Origin: a virus
Virus record (IMG/VR): IMGVR_UViG_3300037042_000145
Location: 1-20,304 of that record
Direction: 5' to 3' (one strand)
Length of the DNA: 20,304 nt
Within the stretch, counting starts at the first letter, position 1. Every line of letters begins with the position of its first letter. The position numbers were made by a program, and so were the translations under genes. The notes below the pieces were generated by a model, which ran no database searches, was not told where the DNA came from, and was given only the letters and a program-made list of their open reading frames with translations. Below are positions 3,157 through 17,771 of this stretch, in pieces.

Positions 3157-3363
3157 ATGACAATTACAGTTATGGATAATGGTTGGATTTCCGATAGTTT
3201 CACGATTGGTGGACCCCCATCATATACAGATGCTATTGTTATGCCTCCTGATCAATATAATGCTTTGACGGCTGATCAGATAGTGACGATGAAACAAGAG
3301 AGATATGACAGTTGGGTTGCCATGGTCATAGCTGAATCTACGAGGGTCATAGATGGCGAATAG
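3157..3363 (+). CDS. Small phage protein of unknown function (68 aa)
   Basis: A 68-residue protein starting MTITVMDNGWISDSF, with motifs PPSYTDAIVMPPDQYNALTADQI and a helical C-terminus (MKQERYDSWVAMV). I do not recognise a family. Small proteins of this kind, with a conserved aromatic and acidic pattern, often sit next to phage fibre genes and some act as fibre assembly chaperones; this role is inference from position only. The start is chosen from the AAGGA ribosome site 6 bases upstream. The last 11 bases overlap the start of the 1021-aa repeat protein, which suggests coupled translation. Confidence 0.6.
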   Translation: MTITVMDNGWISDSFTIGGPPSYTDAIVMPPDQYNALTADQIVTMKQERYDSWVAMVIAESTRVIDGE

Positions 3364-6300
3364 ATATTGGGTTGGAGGAGCGGGTAGTTGGACTACATCA
3401 GACACAACTCATTGGTCTACTTTTTCTGGCGGTGGTGGTGGTGCATCTGTTCCAACTGCCTCCGATAACGTCTTCTTCGATCAAGTAGCGACGTATACTG
3501 TAACTGTTACGGGCGCACTAGCTTGTCTTGATTTTACAGTTTCTTTTGGAGTAGTAGCATTTGCTTTAAGCGGTAGTTCATCAGTAGCTATTTCTGGCAG
3601 TATGACACTTGCATCTGGAACTGTTAGTTCTTGGGCTGCTAATTTTGGAGTTACTTTTAATGCTACAACATCAAAATCAGTATCAACTAATAATGTTGCT
3701 ATAGGTGCTACAACATTTAATGGTGTAGGCGGTACTTGGACACTCGGTAGTGCCTTTTCAGTAAATAACGGAACACTTACATTAACAAACGGAACATTTA
3801 GCACAAGTGCATCAAATTACGCTGTCAATTCTGCAAATTTTAGCTCAAATAATTCTAACACACGAACACTCAATTTGAACGCTTCTACATATACACTGAC
3901 ATCTACGAGTTGGACTTGCATAACAGCAACTAATTTAACTGTTTCAGGTTCCGGTGCTACTGTCACAATGATTGGTGCTAGTGCCAAAACTTTTTCTGGT
4001 GGAAGTGCTAATTGGGGTGCGATAACATTAGATCAAGGAGGTGCAGGACGACTAACAATTTCTGGTTCCAACACATTTGCGGGTATCTCAAATTCCTACA
4101 ATGCTACAGGTGCAACATCGATTCGTTTTACTTCTGGGACAACACAGACTGTTACAAGTTTTACGGCAGCAGGAACTGCGGGAAAAGTATTAACCATTGA
4201 CAGCACAACACCCGCAACTGCTGCGACGTTATCTAAGGCATCTGGAACAGTCTCGGTTGATTACGTTTCAATTCAAGATAGCACTGCTACAGGTGGTGCT
4301 ACATGGAATGCTGGTTCAAACAGTACAAATGTTAGCGGTAACACAGGATGGGTTTTTACTGATAGATATTGGGTTGGAGGCGCGGGTAATTGGACAACAT
4401 CAGACACAACTCATTGGTCGTTGACCTCTGGTGGTGCAGGTGGTGCATCTGTTCCAACTGCCTCCAATAGCGTTTTCTTCGATCAAGCAGGAACGTATAC
4501 TGTAACTGTTACTGGCCCTCTTACTTGTCGTGATTTTACAGTTTCTGCTGGAGTAGTAACATTTTCTGCTTCCGGTAACCAAGCAATAGCTATTTCCGGT
4601 AGTATGTCACTTGCATCTGGAACTGTTGGTACTTGGGACACCAGTTTTATACCTACTTTCAATGCTACAACATCACAAACAATAACAACTAATAGTGAGT
4701 CTATAGCTGCTACAACATTTGATGGTGTAGGTGGTACTTGGACACTTGGTAGTGCTTTTGTAACTAGCGGACTACTTACATTAACAAACGGAACATTTGA
4801 TACAAGTGCATCAAATTATGCTGTGAATTGTCAACAATTTTCTTCAAATAATTCTAACATTAGAACATTAAATGTAAATGCTTCTATTTTTACAATTACA
4901 ACTAGTAGTTGGACTTGCACAACAGCAACTAATTTAACTGTTTTAGGTTCTGGTGCTACGGTTAAAATGGCAGCTTCGGTAGTTGTTAAAACTTTTGCTG
5001 GTGGCGGTGCTAATTGGGGTGCGATAACATTAGATCAAGGCGGTTCGACACGATTAACAATTAGTGGCTCCAACACATTTGCAAACATTTCAAACTCCTA
5101 CAACGCAACAGGTGCAACATCGATTCGGTTTACTTCTGGGACAACACAGACCGTTACAAGTTTTACGGCAACAGGTAGCTCAGGAAAAGTATTAACTATT
5201 GACAGCACAACACCGGGGACGGCTGCGACGTTATCTAAAGCCTCTGGAACAGTTTCGGTTAGTTTTCTCTCAATTCAAGATAGCACTGCTACGGGCGGTG
5301 CTACATGGATTGCCTTAGACAGTATAGATGTTAGCGGAAACACAGGGTGGGTTATTACTCCTCCTATTAGATATTGGGTTGGTGGAGCAGGTACTTGGGA
5401 CGCATCAGACACAACTCATTGGTCTTCTTCATCAGGTGGTGCAGGTGGCGCGACTGTTCCATATGCGGGTGTAGGCGTTATTTTTGACCAAGCAGGAACG
5501 TATACTGTATCTGTTGATGACGTTTTTTGTAACGATTTTACAATTTCTGCCGGATTAGTAACATTTAACGCTGTGACTGGATTCCGCGATATAACTATTT
5601 CCGGCAACATGTTAGTTGCATCTGGGACGGTTAGTTCTTGGTCGACTAATGTAGGAGCTATTTTTAATGCTACAACATCAAAAACAATAACAACTAATAA
5701 TTTTAATATAGGCAGAACTGATTTCGATGGTGTAGGCGGAACTTGGACCCTTGGTAGTAATTTTTCATGTACAGGCAGCGGTAATGGCGGAGTTATTTTT
5801 TTAATAAACGGAACATTTAGCACAAGTGCATCAAATTATGCTGTGAATTGTAGAACTTTTTACTCAGATTATTCTAGCACACGAACATTAAATGTGAATG
5901 CTTCTACATTTACAATCACTACTTCATGGACTTGCACAACAGCAACAGGTTTAACTGTTTCAGGTTCCGGTGCTACTGTCACAATGACTAGTGCTAGTGC
6001 CAAAACTTTTTCTGGTGGAAGTGCTAACTACGGTGCATTTACATTAGATCAAGGAGGTGCAGGCGCGTTAACAATTAGCGGTTCTAACACATTTGCAAAT
6101 ATCTCAAATTCATACAACGCGACAGCCGCAACGTCGATTCGTTTCACGTCTGGAACAACGCAGACCGTAACAAGTTTTACGGCAGCAGGAACTGTGGGAA
6201 AAGTATTAACCATTGACAGCACAACACCTGCGACTGCTGCGACGTTATCTAAAACGACTGGGACAGTTTCGGTTGATTACCTTTCAATTCAAGATAGCAC

Positions 6301-6418
6301 CGCGACAGGTGGAGCTGCATGGAATGCTGGTTCAAACAGTACAAATGTTAGCGGTAACACAGGATGGGTTTTTACTGCTCCTCCCACCACCAGTCCAAAT
6401 TTCTTTTTATTGATGTAA
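3353..6418 (+). CDS. Large repeat adhesin/fibre protein, three YWVGGAG modules (1021 aa)
   Basis: After MAN, the protein is three ~335-residue copies of one module and a short tail (APPTTSPNFFLLM). Each copy begins RYWVGGAG.W..SDTTHWS, then a Gly-rich turn and VFFDQ, followed by many short beta strands (SGSM.LASGTV, FNATTS, GVGGTWTLGS, NGTF.TSASNYAVN, TLDQGG..LTISGSNTF, IRFTSGTTQTVTSFTA, KVLTIDSTTP, SIQDSTATGGA) and ends GNTGWV.T. The composition and strand periodicity suggest a beta-helix or stacked beta-sandwich adhesin. The opening motif (W, turn, W, then a Gly-rich segment and VFFD) is seen in surface and phage proteins from metagenomes and resembles G8-type beta domains; that link is tentative. 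There is no signal peptide, consistent with a virion component. GAGGG lies 6 bases before ATG 3353. Its role as a host-surface or polysaccharide binder is inference. Confidence 0.75.
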   Translation: MANRYWVGGAGSWTTSDTTHWSTFSGGGGGASVPTASDNVFFDQVATYTVTVTGALACLDFTVSFGVVAFALSGSSSVAISGSMTLASGTVSSWAANFGVTFNATTSKSVSTNNVAIGATTFNGVGGTWTLGSAFSVNNGTLTLTNGTFSTSASNYAVNSANFSSNNSNTRTLNLNASTYTLTSTSWTCITATNLTVSGSGATVTMIGASAKTFSGGSANWGAITLDQGGAGRLTISGSNTFAGISNSYNATGATSIRFTSGTTQTVTSFTAAGTAGKVLTIDSTTPATAATLSKASGTVSVDYVSIQDSTATGGATWNAGSNSTNVSGNTGWVFTDRYWVGGAGNWTTSDTTHWSLTSGGAGGASVPTASNSVFFDQAGTYTVTVTGPLTCRDFTVSAGVVTFSASGNQAIAISGSMSLASGTVGTWDTSFIPTFNATTSQTITTNSESIAATTFDGVGGTWTLGSAFVTSGLLTLTNGTFDTSASNYAVNCQQFSSNNSNIRTLNVNASIFTITTSSWTCTTATNLTVLGSGATVKMAASVVVKTFAGGGANWGAITLDQGGSTRLTISGSNTFANISNSYNATGATSIRFTSGTTQTVTSFTATGSSGKVLTIDSTTPGTAATLSKASGTVSVSFLSIQDSTATGGATWIALDSIDVSGNTGWVITPPIRYWVGGAGTWDASDTTHWSSSSGGAGGATVPYAGVGVIFDQAGTYTVSVDDVFCNDFTISAGLVTFNAVTGFRDITISGNMLVASGTVSSWSTNVGAIFNATTSKTITTNNFNIGRTDFDGVGGTWTLGSNFSCTGSGNGGVIFLINGTFSTSASNYAVNCRTFYSDYSSTRTLNVNASTFTITTSWTCTTATGLTVSGSGATVTMTSASAKTFSGGSANYGAFTLDQGGAGALTISGSNTFANISNSYNATAATSIRFTSGTTQTVTSFTAAGTVGKVLTIDSTTPATAATLSKTTGTVSVDYLSIQDSTATGGAAWNAGSNSTNVSGNTGWVFTAPPTTSPNFFLLM
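3362..4363 (+). repeat. YWVGGAG module, copy 1 (334 aa)
   Basis: It runs from RYWVGGAGSW to GNTGWVFT. The 5' part resembles copy 2 (GASVPTAS..VFFDQ), whereas the 3' part (GSGATVTM..ASAKTFSGGS and the final GSNSTNVSGNTGWVFT) is nearly the same as copy 3. Confidence 0.85.
4364..5368 (+). repeat. YWVGGAG module, copy 2 (335 aa)
   Basis: It runs from RYWVGGAGNW to GNTGWVIT plus a PPI linker. It shares DQAGTYTV and the NVNAS.FTITTS region with copy 3, but has its own 3' end (WIALDSIDVSGNTGWVIT). Confidence 0.85.
5369..6376 (+). repeat. YWVGGAG module, copy 3 (336 aa)
   Basis: It runs from RYWVGGAGTW to GNTGWVFT. It has a longer Gly-rich insertion in the strand region around 5767-5806 (SCTGSGNGGVIFLING) compared with the other copies. 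Its last ~60 bases are almost identical to the end of copy 1. Confidence 0.85.
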
Positions 6419-11933: not shown

Positions 11934-12446
11934 ATGAAACAGAACTTTGAAGAATGTCTTGCCCATGTGTTAAAACATGAAGGCGGCTATGTTGATCATC
12001 CCAAAGACCCCGGCGGCGCTACCAACTTGGGATGCACCAAGAAAGTTTGGGAAGAGTGGGTTGGGCATGAGGTAACAAAAGATGACATTAAAGCCCTCAC
12101 AGTCTCCGATGTCGCCCCGCTCTACAAAGCGCGGTACTGGGACAAGTGCCGCTGCGATGACCTTCCGCATGGGGTGGATTTTGCTGTTTTTGACATTGCT
12201 ATTAATTCTGGTCCTTCTCGCGCCGCCAAGTTTCTTCAAGCTGCTTGTAATGTGGTCGCTGATGGGGCTATCGGACCTGCTACACTTGCAGCGGTAGCAA
12301 AGATGGACTCCAGTGAACTGGCGGCGAAAATTTGCGATGCAAGATTGGTTTTCTTGCAAGGTTTGCCCACTTGGAGTACATTTGGAAAAGGATGGGGCCG
12401 TCGCGTAGCAGAGGTTGCTCAGACCTCTGCAAAAATGGTTGGATAA
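11934..12446 (+). CDS. Endolysin, glycoside hydrolase family 108 N-acetylmuramidase (170 aa)
   Basis: AAAGGA 8 bases upstream supports the start. The N-terminal catalytic domain carries the GH108 signature LKHEGGYVDHPKDPGGATN, with the predicted catalytic glutamate at Glu16, followed by TKKVWEEW and LYKARYWDKCRCDDLP. From about residue 80, HGVDFAVFDIAINSGPSRA leads into the Pfam PG_binding_3 region, which contains the DGAIGPAT motif (110-117) and ends near residue 165. Length is typical of the family (~160-180). It cleaves the glycan backbone of peptidoglycan. No signal peptide or SAR-type TM is seen, so it should need a holin. Five cysteines (8, 34, 72, 74, 105, with 134 a sixth) are more than usual for this size. 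No gene symbol is assigned. Confidence 0.9.
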   Translation: MKQNFEECLAHVLKHEGGYVDHPKDPGGATNLGCTKKVWEEWVGHEVTKDDIKALTVSDVAPLYKARYWDKCRCDDLPHGVDFAVFDIAINSGPSRAAKFLQAACNVVADGAIGPATLAAVAKMDSSELAAKICDARLVFLQGLPTWSTFGKGWGRRVAEVAQTSAKMVG

Positions 12447-12447
12447 A

Positions 12448-13107
12448 ATGACTTCACAGACCGGGATGACCTTCAGTGAATTGCAAACCGACATCCAGAA
12501 CTATCTGGAGCGCGGGGCTTCATCTGCTGTCGATCCCATTGTTTACCAACAGATTCCACGGTTAATCACCCTTGCTGAACGACGTATTTCAGCAGACTTG
12601 AAGATTGAAGGCTTTATCGTTGCCGTCACTACAAATTTTCAAAATGGTGTTTCTGTATATCCAAAGCCGGATAGGTGGAGAAGGACTATCTCTATCAACT
12701 TTGGAACTGGTGCAACAAACGCAATCAGGACTTTCTTGTTTCCGCGTAGCTATGAGTATATCAGAAGCTACTGGCCTAATGAGGCACTGACTGACCAACC
12801 TAAATTTTACGCTGATTACAACTATAATAACTGGCTGATTGGTCCTACACCTAACGAGGACACCCCAGCCGAGATTCTTTATTATGAAATTCCAGCCCTT
12901 CTTAGCGACGTTGTACAGACAAACTGGCTTACGGAATACGCCCCACAGCTTATCCTGTATGGTTCATTGCTTGAGGCAACGCCATTTTTGAAGAACGATG
13001 AACGCATTCCGGTCTGGCAAAATTTCTATGACACGGCTCTACAGGCCATCAATAAAGAAGACCTCAAGAGAATTGTTGACCGCAGCACAACGCGAGATGG
13101 GGCATAA
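12448..13107 (+). CDS. Head-tail adaptor-like protein, SU10/phiEco32 type (219 aa)
   Basis: ATG 12448 is 1 base after the endolysin stop; ATG 12466 (MTFSELQTDIQNYL) is a reasonable alternative that removes six residues and matches the usual start of this family. The protein shows SELQTDIQNYLERG, helical IPRLITLAERRISADLKI, a beta region (VYPKPDRWRRTISINF), LFPRSYEYIRSYWP, KFYADYNYNNWLIGPTPN and AEILYYEIPALLSD. These features match phage adaptor proteins that bind below the portal and connect to the tail in podoviruses. It is followed directly by other tail genes, as expected. The family call is from remembered pattern, not a search. Confidence 0.65.
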   Translation: MTSQTGMTFSELQTDIQNYLERGASSAVDPIVYQQIPRLITLAERRISADLKIEGFIVAVTTNFQNGVSVYPKPDRWRRTISINFGTGATNAIRTFLFPRSYEYIRSYWPNEALTDQPKFYADYNYNNWLIGPTPNEDTPAEILYYEIPALLSDVVQTNWLTEYAPQLILYGSLLEATPFLKNDERIPVWQNFYDTALQAINKEDLKRIVDRSTTRDGA

Positions 13108-13109
13108 CT

Positions 13110-14666
13110 ATGAGCTTTACCAGTATCTTTGGTGGATCGACCATCTACCCCAGCCAAGTATCCTATCTTTCCATTGACCTTGATACGGTTGATGTTGTCC
13201 TGACATGGCCACTGGATAATAACGGGGCAGTTGATATTGCCGCTAACATTATCGACGTTAACTGCACGGTCGGTGGTTTTAATATATTTCTCCCCGCCGC
13301 CAATCTGGCATCGACAGGGCAGACCATCCTTTTCAATAACACAGGTACAGACCCGTTTACGGTGGTTGATACCAGCGGAAACACGATTGTAAGTTTGACT
13401 TCCGGCCAGCTTTGGCAAGTTTACATTACGGATAATACAACAGCTAATGGTAGCTGGCAGGTTCTCCAGTATGGCGTTGGTGTATCGTCTGCCACGGCTG
13501 GCGCTCTTGCCGGGCTTGGCATTAAAGCAATTGCAACAACGCTTAATCAGTCTCAGGAAGTTGTTCAATTCAATACCAGCTTTACTGCTGGAAACGGCAA
13601 CCGCTCACAGCTTTTGCTCTGGACTGGCGGCGCAGGAACCCTAACGCTTCCGCTGCCGGGAGCGCTTGGCAACGACTGGTTTATGAGCTTCCGGAATCAA
13701 GGAACTGGTAGCCTTGTGATTGCCACGTCAGGTGGGTATTTGATTGATGGTGGTGCAACCAAGGAAATCCAACCAACCAATTCATGCTTTATTATTTGCG
13801 ACGGCACTGCATATTTCACGGTTGGATTTGGCCAAAACGTAAATTTTGCGTTTAACTACACCTCCATTGCAGTGGCAGGCACAGGTAACTACACCCTTTC
13901 AACGGCTGAACAAAACAAAATTTCCTATCGGTTTACCGGAGCTTTGACAGGCAACCGAGTGATTATCGTACCCCCAACTGTCCAGCAGTATTGGGTCGAT
14001 AACTCAACAACCAATGCCTTCAGCTTAACAATTAAAACATCTGCTGGCACTGGGTTTGCAGTTCCTCAAGCCTCCCGCGCTATCCTGTATTGCGATGGGA
14101 CGGATGTTGTAAATGCGGCAACGGCTGGTATTTCAACTCCAGTCGCAATTGCAAATGGCGGTACTGGGGCAACTACAGCTGGTGGCGCGCTCATCAACCT
14201 TGGTGGTGGCTCTACTGGTATTACAGTATTCCAGTCATCGACTCAGGCCCAAGGCAGAACAGCTATCGGCGGGTCAACAATTGGTCAGGCTCTCTTTACA
14301 TCGTTGGCAACAATTAACAGCCTTAGTACCCTAGTTGGTGGCTCAGGATATGTTAACGGAAATTATGCTAGCGTAACGCTTATCAACGGCTCCGGCATTG
14401 GCGCTCTTGCAGATATTACGGTAGTCGGCACAGCAGTAAGTGTTGTTACATTAATTGATGGCGGTCTTGGCTACGAAGTTGGTGACATACTGTCTGCGTT
14501 TAATACGTCGCTTGGTGGAACTGGTGCTGGGTTTCAGATCAGCGTGGCTACAATTACCGCTACCGCCGCCAGAGCAACCCTTGAGGTTTACTCTATAGAT
14601 CAGGTTGATTCCCTTATATCTCAGACTCAATCAGACGCCCTTGCATATGCAGTGAGCCTTGGATAA
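13110..14666 (+). CDS. Tail/virion structural protein with fibre-type NGGTGATT motif (518 aa)
   Basis: It begins MSFTSIFGGSTIYPSQVSYL, which I recall as a conserved start of a podovirus structural protein encoded between the adaptor and the gp10-like gene. Residues 30-130 are strand-rich (VVLTWPL, ILFNNTGTDPFTVVD, WQVYITDNTTANGSW), with LWTGGAGTLTLPLPGALGN near 180. The region around residues 250-310 (FAFNYTSIAVAG, YRFTGALTGN) is followed by VAIANGGTGATTAGGAL near 350, a typical phage fibre motif. Residues 402-484 appear to be an inserted beta domain shared with the next gene. The C-terminus (ARATLEVYSIDQVDSLISQT) is helical. A role as a fibre or nozzle-associated tail component is inferred. 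The stop overlaps the next ATG (TAATG). Confidence 0.7.
   Translation: MSFTSIFGGSTIYPSQVSYLSIDLDTVDVVLTWPLDNNGAVDIAANIIDVNCTVGGFNIFLPAANLASTGQTILFNNTGTDPFTVVDTSGNTIVSLTSGQLWQVYITDNTTANGSWQVLQYGVGVSSATAGALAGLGIKAIATTLNQSQEVVQFNTSFTAGNGNRSQLLLWTGGAGTLTLPLPGALGNDWFMSFRNQGTGSLVIATSGGYLIDGGATKEIQPTNSCFIICDGTAYFTVGFGQNVNFAFNYTSIAVAGTGNYTLSTAEQNKISYRFTGALTGNRVIIVPPTVQQYWVDNSTTNAFSLTIKTSAGTGFAVPQASRAILYCDGTDVVNAATAGISTPVAIANGGTGATTAGGALINLGGGSTGITVFQSSTQAQGRTAIGGSTIGQALFTSLATINSLSTLVGGSGYVNGNYASVTLINGSGIGALADITVVGTAVSVVTLIDGGLGYEVGDILSAFNTSLGGTGAGFQISVATITATAARATLEVYSIDQVDSLISQTQSDALAYAVSLG
14313..14561 (+). other. Shared beta domain, copy 1 (inserted in the 518-aa protein)
   Basis: Residues 402-484. 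The pattern is LVGGxxYVNGxY near the start, VVTLxDGGxGYEVGDIL in the middle and SLGGTGAGFQI at the end. It matches the second copy at 15791-16051. The flanks GQALFTS and ARATLEVYS would read naturally as one stalk repeat without it. Confidence 0.6.
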
Positions 14667-16462
14667 TGACAACTAGGCCAGTCCGCATTCAGTCAAAGCC
14701 GGGTATCAAACGTGACGGAACCGTCTTTGAAGGCGATTTCTACGTTGATGGACAGTGGGTACGGTTCCAGCGTGGGCTTCCCCGCAAAATGTGGGGCTAT
14801 CGGCAGATTACAAATTCTCTGGGTGGGGCATCTCGCGGGATGTACACCTACCCATTTAACGGGTTGCTTTATACATTCTCCGGAAGCCGCAGCTTGTTTG
14901 AGATGATTACGGTTGATAACCAAGGCATTGGCTCTGCCCCATATGACAGGACTCCATCCGGTTTTGCAGACAACGCTGCAAATATGTGGGGCATGGACGC
15001 GCTGTATGATACAGCGTCAGGGTACACAGCAATATTTGCTCATGCAGCACCTAACCTTTTGGATATCTCGGCCAGCACAAACACAAATATTTATGCTGGA
15101 GACATTACAGCCTCGTCTGCACTGGCTGTTCTTTCTGGCGCTCCGCAAGTTTCTGGCGGCATATTGGCATTGCACCCATACCTTATTGCATACGGCAATA
15201 ACGGTCTTGTTGCATGGTCCGCACCGGGTGACCCTACAGATTGGGTTCCAGTTGCGGCTGGCCCCGGAGAAGCGTCGGTAACAGCCCAAAAGATTGTAGC
15301 CGCTATCAATACCCGTGGCGGTGCTGGTAACTCTCCATCTGCGCTACTCTGGAGTCTGGATAGCGTTATCAGGATGTCCTACGTTGGCGGCGACGCTGTA
15401 TTCTCGTTTGATACAATATCGGATGAGTCGTCTATCCTGTCGGCCCAGTCTGTCATTGAGTATGATGGCATCTACTACTGGTGCGGAGTAGATCGTTTCC
15501 TGTTGTACAACGGCGTTGTAAGGGAAGTACCCAACAATCTAAACTTGAATTGGTTTTTTGATAATCTGAACTATGACCAAAGGCAGAAGGTTTTTGCTAT
15601 AAAAGTCCCTCGTTTTGGTGAAATCTGGTGGTGTTTTCCATTTGGAGACGCAACTGAATGCACTCATGCTGCCATTTACAATGTCCGTGAAGGTACATGG
15701 TATGACACAGAGCTTCCAAATTTAGGCCGCACAAATGGGCAATACCCGCGTGTTTTTCAGTATCCATTGATGATTGGTTCAACAAGCATTGATTCAATCA
15801 GGACGCTTGGGACTCTCGTTGGTGGGACAACCTACGTTAATGGCACATATTACAATGTTGCAACGACAAACACGACCTCGATTGCAGGTTTTGGCGCAAC
15901 AGTAAACGTCACCGTCGCCGGAAACGTGGTTACCGCTGTGACGCTTGTGATCCCCGGCAGTGGGTACGCAATTGGTGATGTTCTAACTGTGAGCAACACA
16001 TTGATTGGTGGAACAGGAAGCGGGTTTACAATCACGGTCGTCACTCTTGCAGGGTACAGCTTGTGGCAACATGAGTATGGATTGGATGAATCGACTGGCT
16101 CGACCGTCAATCCAATTGAATCATATTTTGAAACCAGTGATATATCTCTTGCAGCGGCTGAGCAGTCTCAGAACAAAAGCCTGCGTGTTACTATCGTTGA
16201 ACCTGATTTTGTTCAATCTGGGCCAATGACTGTATCCGTCACTGGTAGGTCAAATGCCAGAGCCAAGGAAGTCAAAAGCGAGGCTATGGAGTTCCCTGAT
16301 ACTGCTACGTCTCCTCCTGAACAGGTTGTGTTTTTCAAGGAAATCCGACGTGAAATGCGGTTTACATTCCGCAGCAACGTAATTGGCGGCAACTACCAAA
16401 TGGGTATGTGCTTAGCTCATGTTGAGGCAGCTGACGGTACTTTGCTGGGAGCTGTTCCATGA
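14666..16462 (+). CDS. P22 gp10-like tail accessory/DNA-stabilisation protein (598 aa)
   Basis: It starts at TAATG overlapping the upstream stop. The N-terminal KPGIKRDGTVFEG and WVRFQRGLPRKMWGYR (residues 11-46) are hallmarks of the phage stabilisation protein family related to P22 gp10 (Pfam Phage_stabilise). Other conserved parts are AHAAPNLLD, the YDGIYYWCGVDRFLLYNG region (266-283), FDNLNYDQRQKVFAIKVPR, GEIWWCFP, YNVREGTWYD, ESYFETSDISL and VEPDFVQSGPM. It would form part of the tail tube/nozzle that closes the portal and holds the packaged DNA. An extra ~87-residue segment (376-462) lies between PLMIGS and YSLWQHE, which I recall as near neighbours in relatives; its sequence matches a domain in the preceding gene. 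Confidence 0.8.
   Translation: MTTRPVRIQSKPGIKRDGTVFEGDFYVDGQWVRFQRGLPRKMWGYRQITNSLGGASRGMYTYPFNGLLYTFSGSRSLFEMITVDNQGIGSAPYDRTPSGFADNAANMWGMDALYDTASGYTAIFAHAAPNLLDISASTNTNIYAGDITASSALAVLSGAPQVSGGILALHPYLIAYGNNGLVAWSAPGDPTDWVPVAAGPGEASVTAQKIVAAINTRGGAGNSPSALLWSLDSVIRMSYVGGDAVFSFDTISDESSILSAQSVIEYDGIYYWCGVDRFLLYNGVVREVPNNLNLNWFFDNLNYDQRQKVFAIKVPRFGEIWWCFPFGDATECTHAAIYNVREGTWYDTELPNLGRTNGQYPRVFQYPLMIGSTSIDSIRTLGTLVGGTTYVNGTYYNVATTNTTSIAGFGATVNVTVAGNVVTAVTLVIPGSGYAIGDVLTVSNTLIGGTGSGFTITVVTLAGYSLWQHEYGLDESTGSTVNPIESYFETSDISLAAAEQSQNKSLRVTIVEPDFVQSGPMTVSVTGRSNARAKEVKSEAMEFPDTATSPPEQVVFFKEIRREMRFTFRSNVIGGNYQMGMCLAHVEAADGTLLGAVP
15791..16051 (+). other. Shared beta domain, copy 2 (inserted in the gp10-like protein)
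   Basis: Residues 376-462. It contains TLVGGTTYVNGTYYN, VVTAVTLVIPGSGYAIGDVL and TLIGGTGSGFTITV, matching copy 1 at 14313-14561 motif by motif. The GSGYxxGDxLT and GGTGSGF pattern is seen in other phage virion proteins. Confidence 0.65.
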
Positions 16463-16701
16463 TCGGGATTAATCCTGCTGGCATGGGAGTGATTGAGTGG
16501 GCCGATAGAATGACGCCTATCATTATAAATGAAGGTGCAAGTGGCGATATTGGCCGATTAGATGATGAGGCAAACTGGCAAGAATGGGCAAGAGGTGTTA
16601 TTCTATCTAATACCAATTGGCAAAGCACGGCTCCTAACCCGTATCAATTCACCGATTGGCGTCTTTGGGCCGAGCGGTTTTTGCAGATTATGGTGACATG
16701 A
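16459..16701 (+). CDS. Small conserved podovirus protein (80 aa)
   Basis: ATG 16459 is in an ATGA overlap with the gp10-like stop. The 80 residues begin MIGINPAGMGVIEWADRM and include IGRLDDEANWQEWA and PNPYQFTDWRLWAERF. I recall this short Trp- and Asp-rich protein as a regular companion of the gp10-like gene in podoviruses, with no demonstrated function. It has no TM segment or signal peptide. A virion minor component or assembly factor is plausible from position. Its stop overlaps the next ATG (ATGA at 16698-16701). Confidence 0.6.
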   Translation: MIGINPAGMGVIEWADRMTPIIINEGASGDIGRLDDEANWQEWARGVILSNTNWQSTAPNPYQFTDWRLWAERFLQIMVT

Positions 16702-17771
16702 TGAGACAGGTCGTTATCAACTTTGACCCTCCTAGTCAGTACAAACAAGGCGGTCTTGCCTCTAAAGCAGAGCAAGTCCGTAGTGCTGGCAAGGGTAGCG
16801 ACAATATGCTTATCCATGTCAATGAAGAAGAATTTGAATGGATGAAGGATAACCTTGGGCCGGGGAGCGTTAACCCCGACACTGGCCTTCATCAGTTCAA
16901 ACCGTTCTATGAACAGGATTGGTTTGGCCCCGTTGCCACAGCTGCGGCAAACGTATTTGCCCCCGGTGTAGGCAGCGCACTTGGTTCTACAGTTGGTAAT
17001 GTATTTGGCGTAACAAACCCTGCAATCCAAGCGGCTATCGGCAGCGGTTTAATTGGTGGTGGCCTTGGTTCATTCTCCGGCAACGCCCTTGGTGGAGCGG
17101 CCCTTGGTGCAATTACGCCATACGCTTTGAACAGTCTTGGCCTCACAGGGTCTAACGGTGCGTTGTCTGGATTGAATATGTATCCGTCCGTTGATCCGGC
17201 GTCTGCGATATTAAACCCTACAAATCCCGCAAATGTTGCAGGGGGTAGCGGAGACTATATGTCCAAGATCGGGGCAGACTCATCTGGCGTAATGTCCCAG
17301 ATAATGAAAGCTGCTCCACTCTTGCTGGCCGCTTCTGCCCTCGGTGGCGGCGGTGGTGAGGCTAAGCAGCCGTCACGTCCAGAGATTGATCCGGAAGATG
17401 ATCCGGGTCTGCAAAAAATAGAATACAGCCGTAAGCAGACAATGCCAGATATTTATACAGACTACGGATTTGGCCCTGAAAAATCTTTCTTTGAGAATAA
17501 TCAACTTCCAGTTGCTGCTGCTGAAGGGCGGTATGTAAGGGGTGGAGGAACTGGCACGTCTGACTCAATTCCTGCCGTGCTGTCTGACGGCGAGTATGTT
17601 ATGGATGCACAGACTGTTTCGATGCTTGGTAACGGGTCATCTGATGCCGGAGCCAAGAAGCTGGACCATATGCGTAAACAGATTAGAAAACAAAAAGGTT
17701 CTGCTCTGGCAAGAGGAAATTTTGCTCCTGATGCCAAAGGGCCGCTATCTTATATGAAGGGGGCAAAATAA
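16698..17771 (+). CDS. Virion protein with conserved SDGEYVMDA C-terminus (357 aa)
   Basis: The start at 16698 (ATGA overlap) is chosen over an in-frame ATG at 16656 inside the previous gene; 16701 is a near-equal option. Residues 14-21 contain YKQGGLAS and 36-62 contain DNMLIHVNEEEFEWMKDN and NPDTGL. Residues 77-150 are a Gly/Ala-rich hydrophobic stretch (VFAPGVGSALGS, AIGSGLIGGGLGSFSG). A Pro/acidic linker follows (PSRPEIDPEDDP, 225-236), then RYVRGGGTGTSDSIPAVLSDGEYVMDA (278-304), the most conserved-looking part. The tail (KKLDHMRKQIRKQKG) is basic. Proteins with the SDSIPAxLSDGEYV motif recur in tailed-phage virion modules. The Gly/Ala segment could insert in a membrane during DNA ejection; this is inference. 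Confidence 0.6.
   Translation: MMRQVVINFDPPSQYKQGGLASKAEQVRSAGKGSDNMLIHVNEEEFEWMKDNLGPGSVNPDTGLHQFKPFYEQDWFGPVATAAANVFAPGVGSALGSTVGNVFGVTNPAIQAAIGSGLIGGGLGSFSGNALGGAALGAITPYALNSLGLTGSNGALSGLNMYPSVDPASAILNPTNPANVAGGSGDYMSKIGADSSGVMSQIMKAAPLLLAASALGGGGGEAKQPSRPEIDPEDDPGLQKIEYSRKQTMPDIYTDYGFGPEKSFFENNQLPVAAAEGRYVRGGGTGTSDSIPAVLSDGEYVMDAQTVSMLGNGSSDAGAKKLDHMRKQIRKQKGSALARGNFAPDAKGPLSYMKGAK

Follow-up and report, generated by a model that had tools for sequence, protein, structure and literature searches.

The window analysed here, a 20,304-base record of an uncultured virus contig, contains two adjacent tail genes on the plus strand, each with one copy of the same small domain. Gene A (13110..14666) is an open reading frame (ORF) for a fibre-like tail protein of 518 aa, which matches the tail fibre family PHROG 12796 (6.8e-11). 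Gene B (14666..16462) encodes a 598-aa tail nozzle protein matching PHROG 3287 (4.9e-33), and the two genes overlap by one base (TAATG). Copy A of the domain covers residues 397-482 of the first protein (14298..14555, plus strand; hidden Markov model (HMM) match 5.2e-32) and copy B residues 373-461 of the second (15782..16048, plus strand); no further copy is present in the record. The two proteins share a single significant BLASTP segment, formed by exactly these residues (43/89 identical, 73.6 bits, E 4e-18). The global alignment score of the two copies is 215, while 2,000 shuffles gave 16 on average and 68 at most, which rules out chance or low-complexity similarity. The original prediction, that both tail proteins contain the same domain of ~83-87 aa, is borne out by these comparisons; only its limits had to be moved, as the related stretch begins ~5 residues earlier (TSLATINSLSTLVGG / TSIDSIRTLGTLVGG). 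The copies are identical at 67% of first, 66% of second and 34% of third codon positions. The low value at third positions rules out a recent DNA duplication between the genes and indicates that the relationship is old. The domain is most likely an all-beta accessory module of ~85 residues.

Structure prediction and profile searches identify the product of gene B as a tail nozzle protein built of a platform and a seven-bladed beta-propeller. The profile search returned the Pa223 tail chain 9nwi_Y (E 1.6e-18) and the VP1 nozzle (E 4e-16), and gave no sequence match to SU10. The AlphaFold model (predicted local distance difference test 87.6) matches the nozzles of Pa223, VP1, SU10 and P22 (gp10) with Z scores of 31.1, 28.7, 27.8 and 24.4, respectively. 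Since WD-repeat propeller proteins align to residues ~41-473 of the model, the last blade is interrupted by residues 373-463, which immediately precede its closing strand (464-469). This position is referred to below as site 377 and a second one as site 98, in the numbering of P0003, the empty nozzle homologue of a Caulobacter phage. Site 98 is empty in the window (14951..14977, plus strand; around residues 96-104, RTPSGFADN) and lies between the first and the second blade. The assignment of both sites to blades was made by strand order, and on this basis, and by analogy with SU10, they would be found on the outward side of the nozzle.

The content of site 377, located between PLxxG and YxLWxHE, is strongly variable among nozzle relatives. 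The nozzles of the cultured Caulobacter phages (GB2A and kin) are 54% identical and have no domain; the sequence of the empty site is PLLTGVLPNSSNKYKLWVHE. A scan of uncultured virus contigs provided 138 distinct nozzle ORFs, of which 125 well-covered rows were aligned. Seven classes of content were distinguished: the domain (31/125), a ~80-aa module recognised by the motifs SNAGxY and GGTGYxxGDxL (34/125), a bare linker of 5-14 aa (33/125), a short RITE-repeat stretch (19/125), two further unrelated modules of ~100 aa (3/125 and 2/125), and three unclassified rows, which by eye are RITE-like (L049, L110) or mixed (L050). A check for relatives without the domain had been proposed with the original prediction, and these rows provide them in number, with the site either empty or differently filled. 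On a backbone tree of 82 rows, calculated with the columns around both sites left out, 11 changes are needed at site 377 and 3 at site 98; since unclassified rows contribute a few of the 11, the number is safely read as about ten. Two separated clades of this tree carry the domain at site 377.

The exchange can be followed most closely in two near-isogenic nozzles, L113 (5179-7353) and L128 (2390-4243). Their flanks are 98% and 96% identical at the protein level over 50 residues on each side, while a ~112-aa module in one is replaced by five residues (GEGND) in the other. From the sequences, this is a clean cassette swap and a natural insertion pair. The module belongs to a family, here called GSV, which is also present at site 98 of both nozzles, and the GSV modules of sites 98 and 377 form one family (hhalign E 5e-31). 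Neither the GSV modules nor those of the L054 type show any relation to the domain in hhalign. The ~80-aa module with the SNAGxY motif is possibly a distant relative of the domain, judging from the profile alignment (hhalign E 1.4e-5, probability 58%). This module, as found at site 377 of L015 and relatives, also matches PHROG 9703, "head decoration" (7.9e-14).

Site 98 of the relatives holds the domain, an array of domains, or a ~100-aa GSV module. A single copy of the domain is found in MW202545 (L004), L192, L211 and L221, and the GSV module in 28 rows; L145 and L113 carry a GSV module at both sites. Arrays are observed in eight nozzle ORFs on eight contigs (L175, L176, L178, L182, L188, L190, L191 and L194), 1,138-1,627 aa long as recovered, several of them being cut by contig ends; L188 and L190 share length and layout, and the distinct cases may be only seven. 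In each array nozzle, 11-13 stretches are recognised as the domain, and no more than one of these falls outside site 98; the ORFs in which the C-terminal part is retained have one further copy at site 377.

In the gene A product, the N-terminal ~400 aa are conserved among relatives and are followed by tail-fibre repeats, the domain and a C-terminal helix. Residues 148-243 of the monomer model (predicted template-modelling score 0.33) match the anchor domains of Solidus_gp83, TSP4, T4 gp9 and the Pa223 capsid spike with Z scores of 8.7-11.6, and by this model comparison they form a virion-anchor-like N-terminal beta domain. The tail-fibre repeats occupy residues ~344-395; many relatives are ~401 aa long and end soon after the repeats start. 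Copy A is located inside a 22-residue repeat (IGGSTIGQALFTS / ATAARATL), and the alignment of gene A relatives places the interrupted repeat unit, together with the domain, at 14262..14585 (plus strand). The domain sits inside one tail-fibre repeat in the closest relatives as well. Bare repeats of L109 (..ISVFTAANQSAAQSALGG..) and of Caulobacter phage GB2A (..GDALFTAASASAARTTLG..) match the joined flanks GQALFTS / ATAARATLEVYS. Thus, the junctions at which both proteins had been predicted to close without the domain agree with the domain-free repeats and with the empty nozzle site. In L097 and L099 the domain-carrying unit is present twice, duplicated as a whole, while L011, L103, L104 and L105 lack both the domain and the entire unit carrying it. 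In a tree of the N-terminal part (94 rows), all carriers of the domain fall into one clade of 16 rows; there are four state changes, and the history of the domain reads most simply as one gain and about three losses (L011/L103, L104, L105).

The domain is not restricted to these two genes. Two further virus scans and an HMM search resulted in 114 domain-bearing ORFs, comprising 39 nozzles, 8 fibre-like proteins and a remainder that falls into 21 clusters after masking of the domain, some of these clusters representing fragments, or parts of one type of protein. The hosts, named after PHROGs or the records, include a tail sheath (L261), the head closure protein Hc3 (L251, 7 stretches), a tail protein of PHROG 6013 (L205), a virion protein of PHROG 6005, the baseplate protein gp7 of cyanophages P-HM1 and P-HM2, and a PHROG 5107 protein (L189) annotated as an amidase, an annotation without Pfam support. 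The domain therefore occurs in several unrelated structural proteins, and the natural homologues without it show that it is dispensable for the core role of the host protein. In the sheath protein (L261:2432-7018; 1,529 aa) three copies precede the C-terminal sheath part. In cultured phages, the searches used detected the domain in a few structural proteins of cyanophages, the baseplate gp7 among them, and nowhere else; a tblastn search of cultured phages with two domain-only queries gave no match at 1e-3, limited by the short queries and the filters. One scan of cellular genomes revealed no clear cellular source, only four matches, all weak and partial, to metagenome-assembled genomes with the titles Akkermansiaceae, Opitutae, Akkermansia and Chthoniobacter. 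Because domain-free relatives exist in both families at exactly these points, other modules occupy the nozzle site, and the domain recurs in many unrelated virus proteins, the insertion of a mobile domain, as originally predicted, is supported.

The ratios of nonsynonymous to synonymous substitution rates (dN/dS) among close relatives are ~0.06-0.13 and alike in the domain and the backbone; in more distant comparisons, the domain has diverged at a slightly higher rate. On these sequence measures the domain is maintained by purifying selection and is not decaying. No immunoglobulin (Ig) or other family was matched by the domain above the Pfam cut-off, BACON models are absent among the Pfam matches at E <= 1 for either protein, and the domain profile gave no match among solved structures. 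An internal half-repeat is indicated by hhalign with E 1.6e-4 but a probability of only 25%.

One gene upstream of gene A lies an SU10-type adaptor protein (12415..13107, plus strand; Pfam PF24175, 5e-24), and the nozzle gene is thus encoded close to the adaptor gene, as in the P22 gp10 / SU10 gp17 type. The order adaptor, fibre-like gene, nozzle and ejection-type gene (PHROG 4287) suggests that the virus is a short-tailed phage. In contrast to this short-tailed look, residues ~287-325 of the protein encoded at 16656-17771 (around TSDSIPAVLSDGEYVMDAQTV) match a short motif common to many tape-measure families. Elsewhere in the window, a 1,021-aa protein (3353-6418) consists of three ~330-aa repeats, each starting with RYWVGGAGxWxxSDTTHWS, and its family matches are weak noise. 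The truncated protein at 1-699 has a weak F5/F8-type C (galactose-binding) match in the N-terminal part and is weakly tail-protein-like in the C-terminal part.

The explanation we favour, with a probability of roughly 0.6, is that a small all-beta accessory domain moves by recombination from one structural gene of tailed phages to another and would be retained only at places on the outside of a host protein that can take the additional mass, serving in adhesion or as a changeable surface. In the window phage, the domain fills a site predicted to lie in the outer part of the nozzle propeller and, in addition, one repeat unit of the neighbouring fibre-like protein. Assuming a hexameric nozzle and six trimeric fibres, as in solved relatives, roughly 6 + 18 knobs would surround the tail tip. 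These knobs would most likely bind the cell surface, or the polysaccharides on it, weakly and multivalently, or they would just offer an exterior that can be changed. Horizontal exchange and weak carbohydrate binding or adhesion have been proposed for phage Ig-like domains (PMC9230969), and by analogy the domain probably gives weak multivalent adhesion.

Several points weigh against this explanation. Ligand binding is proposed by analogy with the Ig-like domains, and the domain may be no more than a spacer or a stabiliser of the tail. The modelled fold offers little guidance: residues 400-483 of the gene A model (VIA) reach at best Z ~3.5, with domain 3 of EF-Tu, which is at noise level. The outward orientation was derived from strand order and SU10 rather than from a superposition or a hexamer model, and the placement of long branches, such as L004, in the nozzle tree is unsure.

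Among the alternatives, a purely structural role survives best, although we consider it rather unlikely. The domain would then add bulk or contacts between subunits and stiffen the tail tip, with no binding to the cell. A stabilising effect on the virion has been proposed for extra tail sheath domains (PMC9230969), the Ig-like nozzle domains of SU10 contact neighbouring subunits (PMC9509320), and the domain is under purifying selection; but in close relatives the same site works when empty or filled with unrelated modules, which speaks against one specific structural contact. A further possibility, which we put forward as unlikely, is that the outward blades of the nozzle serve as a display rack, with at least two fixed sites for swapping unrelated modules, where, in one lineage, a tandem array of the domain at site 98 would produce a long, extensible or strongly adhesive tip. 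Such a tip could be likened to the 28-nm nozzle of SU10, to which four Ig-like domains and the short fibres contribute.

It had also been suggested that the two copies let the two proteins interact. In this case the copies would bind each other, or the nozzle copy would dock the fibre where the SU10 nozzle holds its short tail fibre. Genes A and B are adjacent, with the overlap of one base, the short fibre gp16 and nozzle gp17 of SU10 are numbered consecutively, and site 377 falls in the blade expected by strand order to bear an SU10-type dock loop. One copy in each gene is found in 25 loci that contain both genes (26 with the two-copy case L099), all in the clade of the window. The nozzle copy stands alone in 17 loci, and about three losses of the fibre copy left the nozzle copy in place; in the only fibre-only cases (L086, L097, L100) the nozzle ORF is cut by a contig end. 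Moreover, site 377 is often empty though a fibre-like gene is present, and the identity of the A and B copies is not raised within a genome (44-55%, compared with 49% on average between genomes). The losses of the fibre copy, as read from the trees, already weaken the idea of a matched pair, and we regard it as improbable. In the domain tree, the A copies and the B copies of this clade form separate groups, with the exception of A_L102, and there is no sign of gene conversion between them. From this separation, and from the unraised identity within genomes, it follows that the two copies have been inherited separately since an early event. Jointly, they form one group with moderate support (87/77), so that the copies of the clade are mostly mutual nearest relatives. 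Independent gain by the two genes, as originally proposed, is thus one of two possibilities: the early event may have been copying from gene to gene in their common ancestor or two gains.

That both segments are original parts of their families, lost in other lineages, appears improbable. Midpoint rooting places the domain at site 377 in one basal nozzle clade, which would allow its presence in the ancestor followed by replacement. Against this stand the unrelated modules at the same site, the unrelated virus proteins that carry the domain, and its restriction in gene A to the single clade (16/94 rows); the solved nozzles of Pa223, VP1 and P22, with ~470-520 aa, also leave little room for it. 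Least probable of all is a nearly neutral passenger that recombines into permissive sites and persists with little function, for although gain, loss and replacement are frequent and tandem expansion is extensive, it predicts dN/dS near 1, whereas the observed values are low and backbone-like, the divergence at larger distance is only somewhat faster and the frames are open throughout.

The favoured explanation, a mobile accessory domain on the outer surface, has counterparts in known systems. The 28-nm nozzle of SU10 arises by rearrangement of several parts (PMC9509320): blades 1-3 are distant from the tail axis, the position between blades 2 and 3 accommodates four inserted Ig-like domains, and the short fibre docks on a loop of blade 1. 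Gene B resembles SU10 gp17 in its fold, in the insertion of beta domains between propeller blades and in the extension on the closing blade. It differs in the sites used, between blades 1 and 2 and in the last blade, and in the exchangeability of their contents, as well as in sequence. Like the Ig-like accessory domains, the domain is a small beta domain of unrelated structural hosts, absent from close relatives, exchanged horizontally and assumed to be at the surface; unlike them, it has no Pfam Ig match, possibly contains a half-repeat, and occupies fixed sites in a beta-propeller, with many copies in some nozzles. Tail-associated tandem arrays of BACON domains, growing by duplication and transfer, are known in crAss-like phages (PMC6949934). 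The present arrays are similarly tail-associated, but they match no BACON model, and the domain is found in, or arrayed within, a core nozzle protein. Domain mosaicism and shuffling in phage proteins are well known (Smug et al. 2023, PMC10684548); here, in distinction, one module family has been followed through the nozzle sites, with site-by-site turnover. In the open-access literature, we found no paper that reports the domain from nozzles, where it has two fixed sites whose contents are interchangeable and where it forms arrays. Phage domain shuffling and tail-associated arrays are thus already known, and the domain in nozzles, its fixed sites, their swappable contents and the arrays of this domain are apparently new.

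The analysis pinpoints, within a core tail protein, two specific positions at which whole domains are swapped, with empty and filled forms present in close relatives. Whether such accessory domains help adsorption, a question already raised for the phage Ig-like domains, can be tested directly on near-isogenic natural pairs. On the modelled position in the nozzle, the domain would be one of the exchangeable parts by which phages alter the exterior of their tails.

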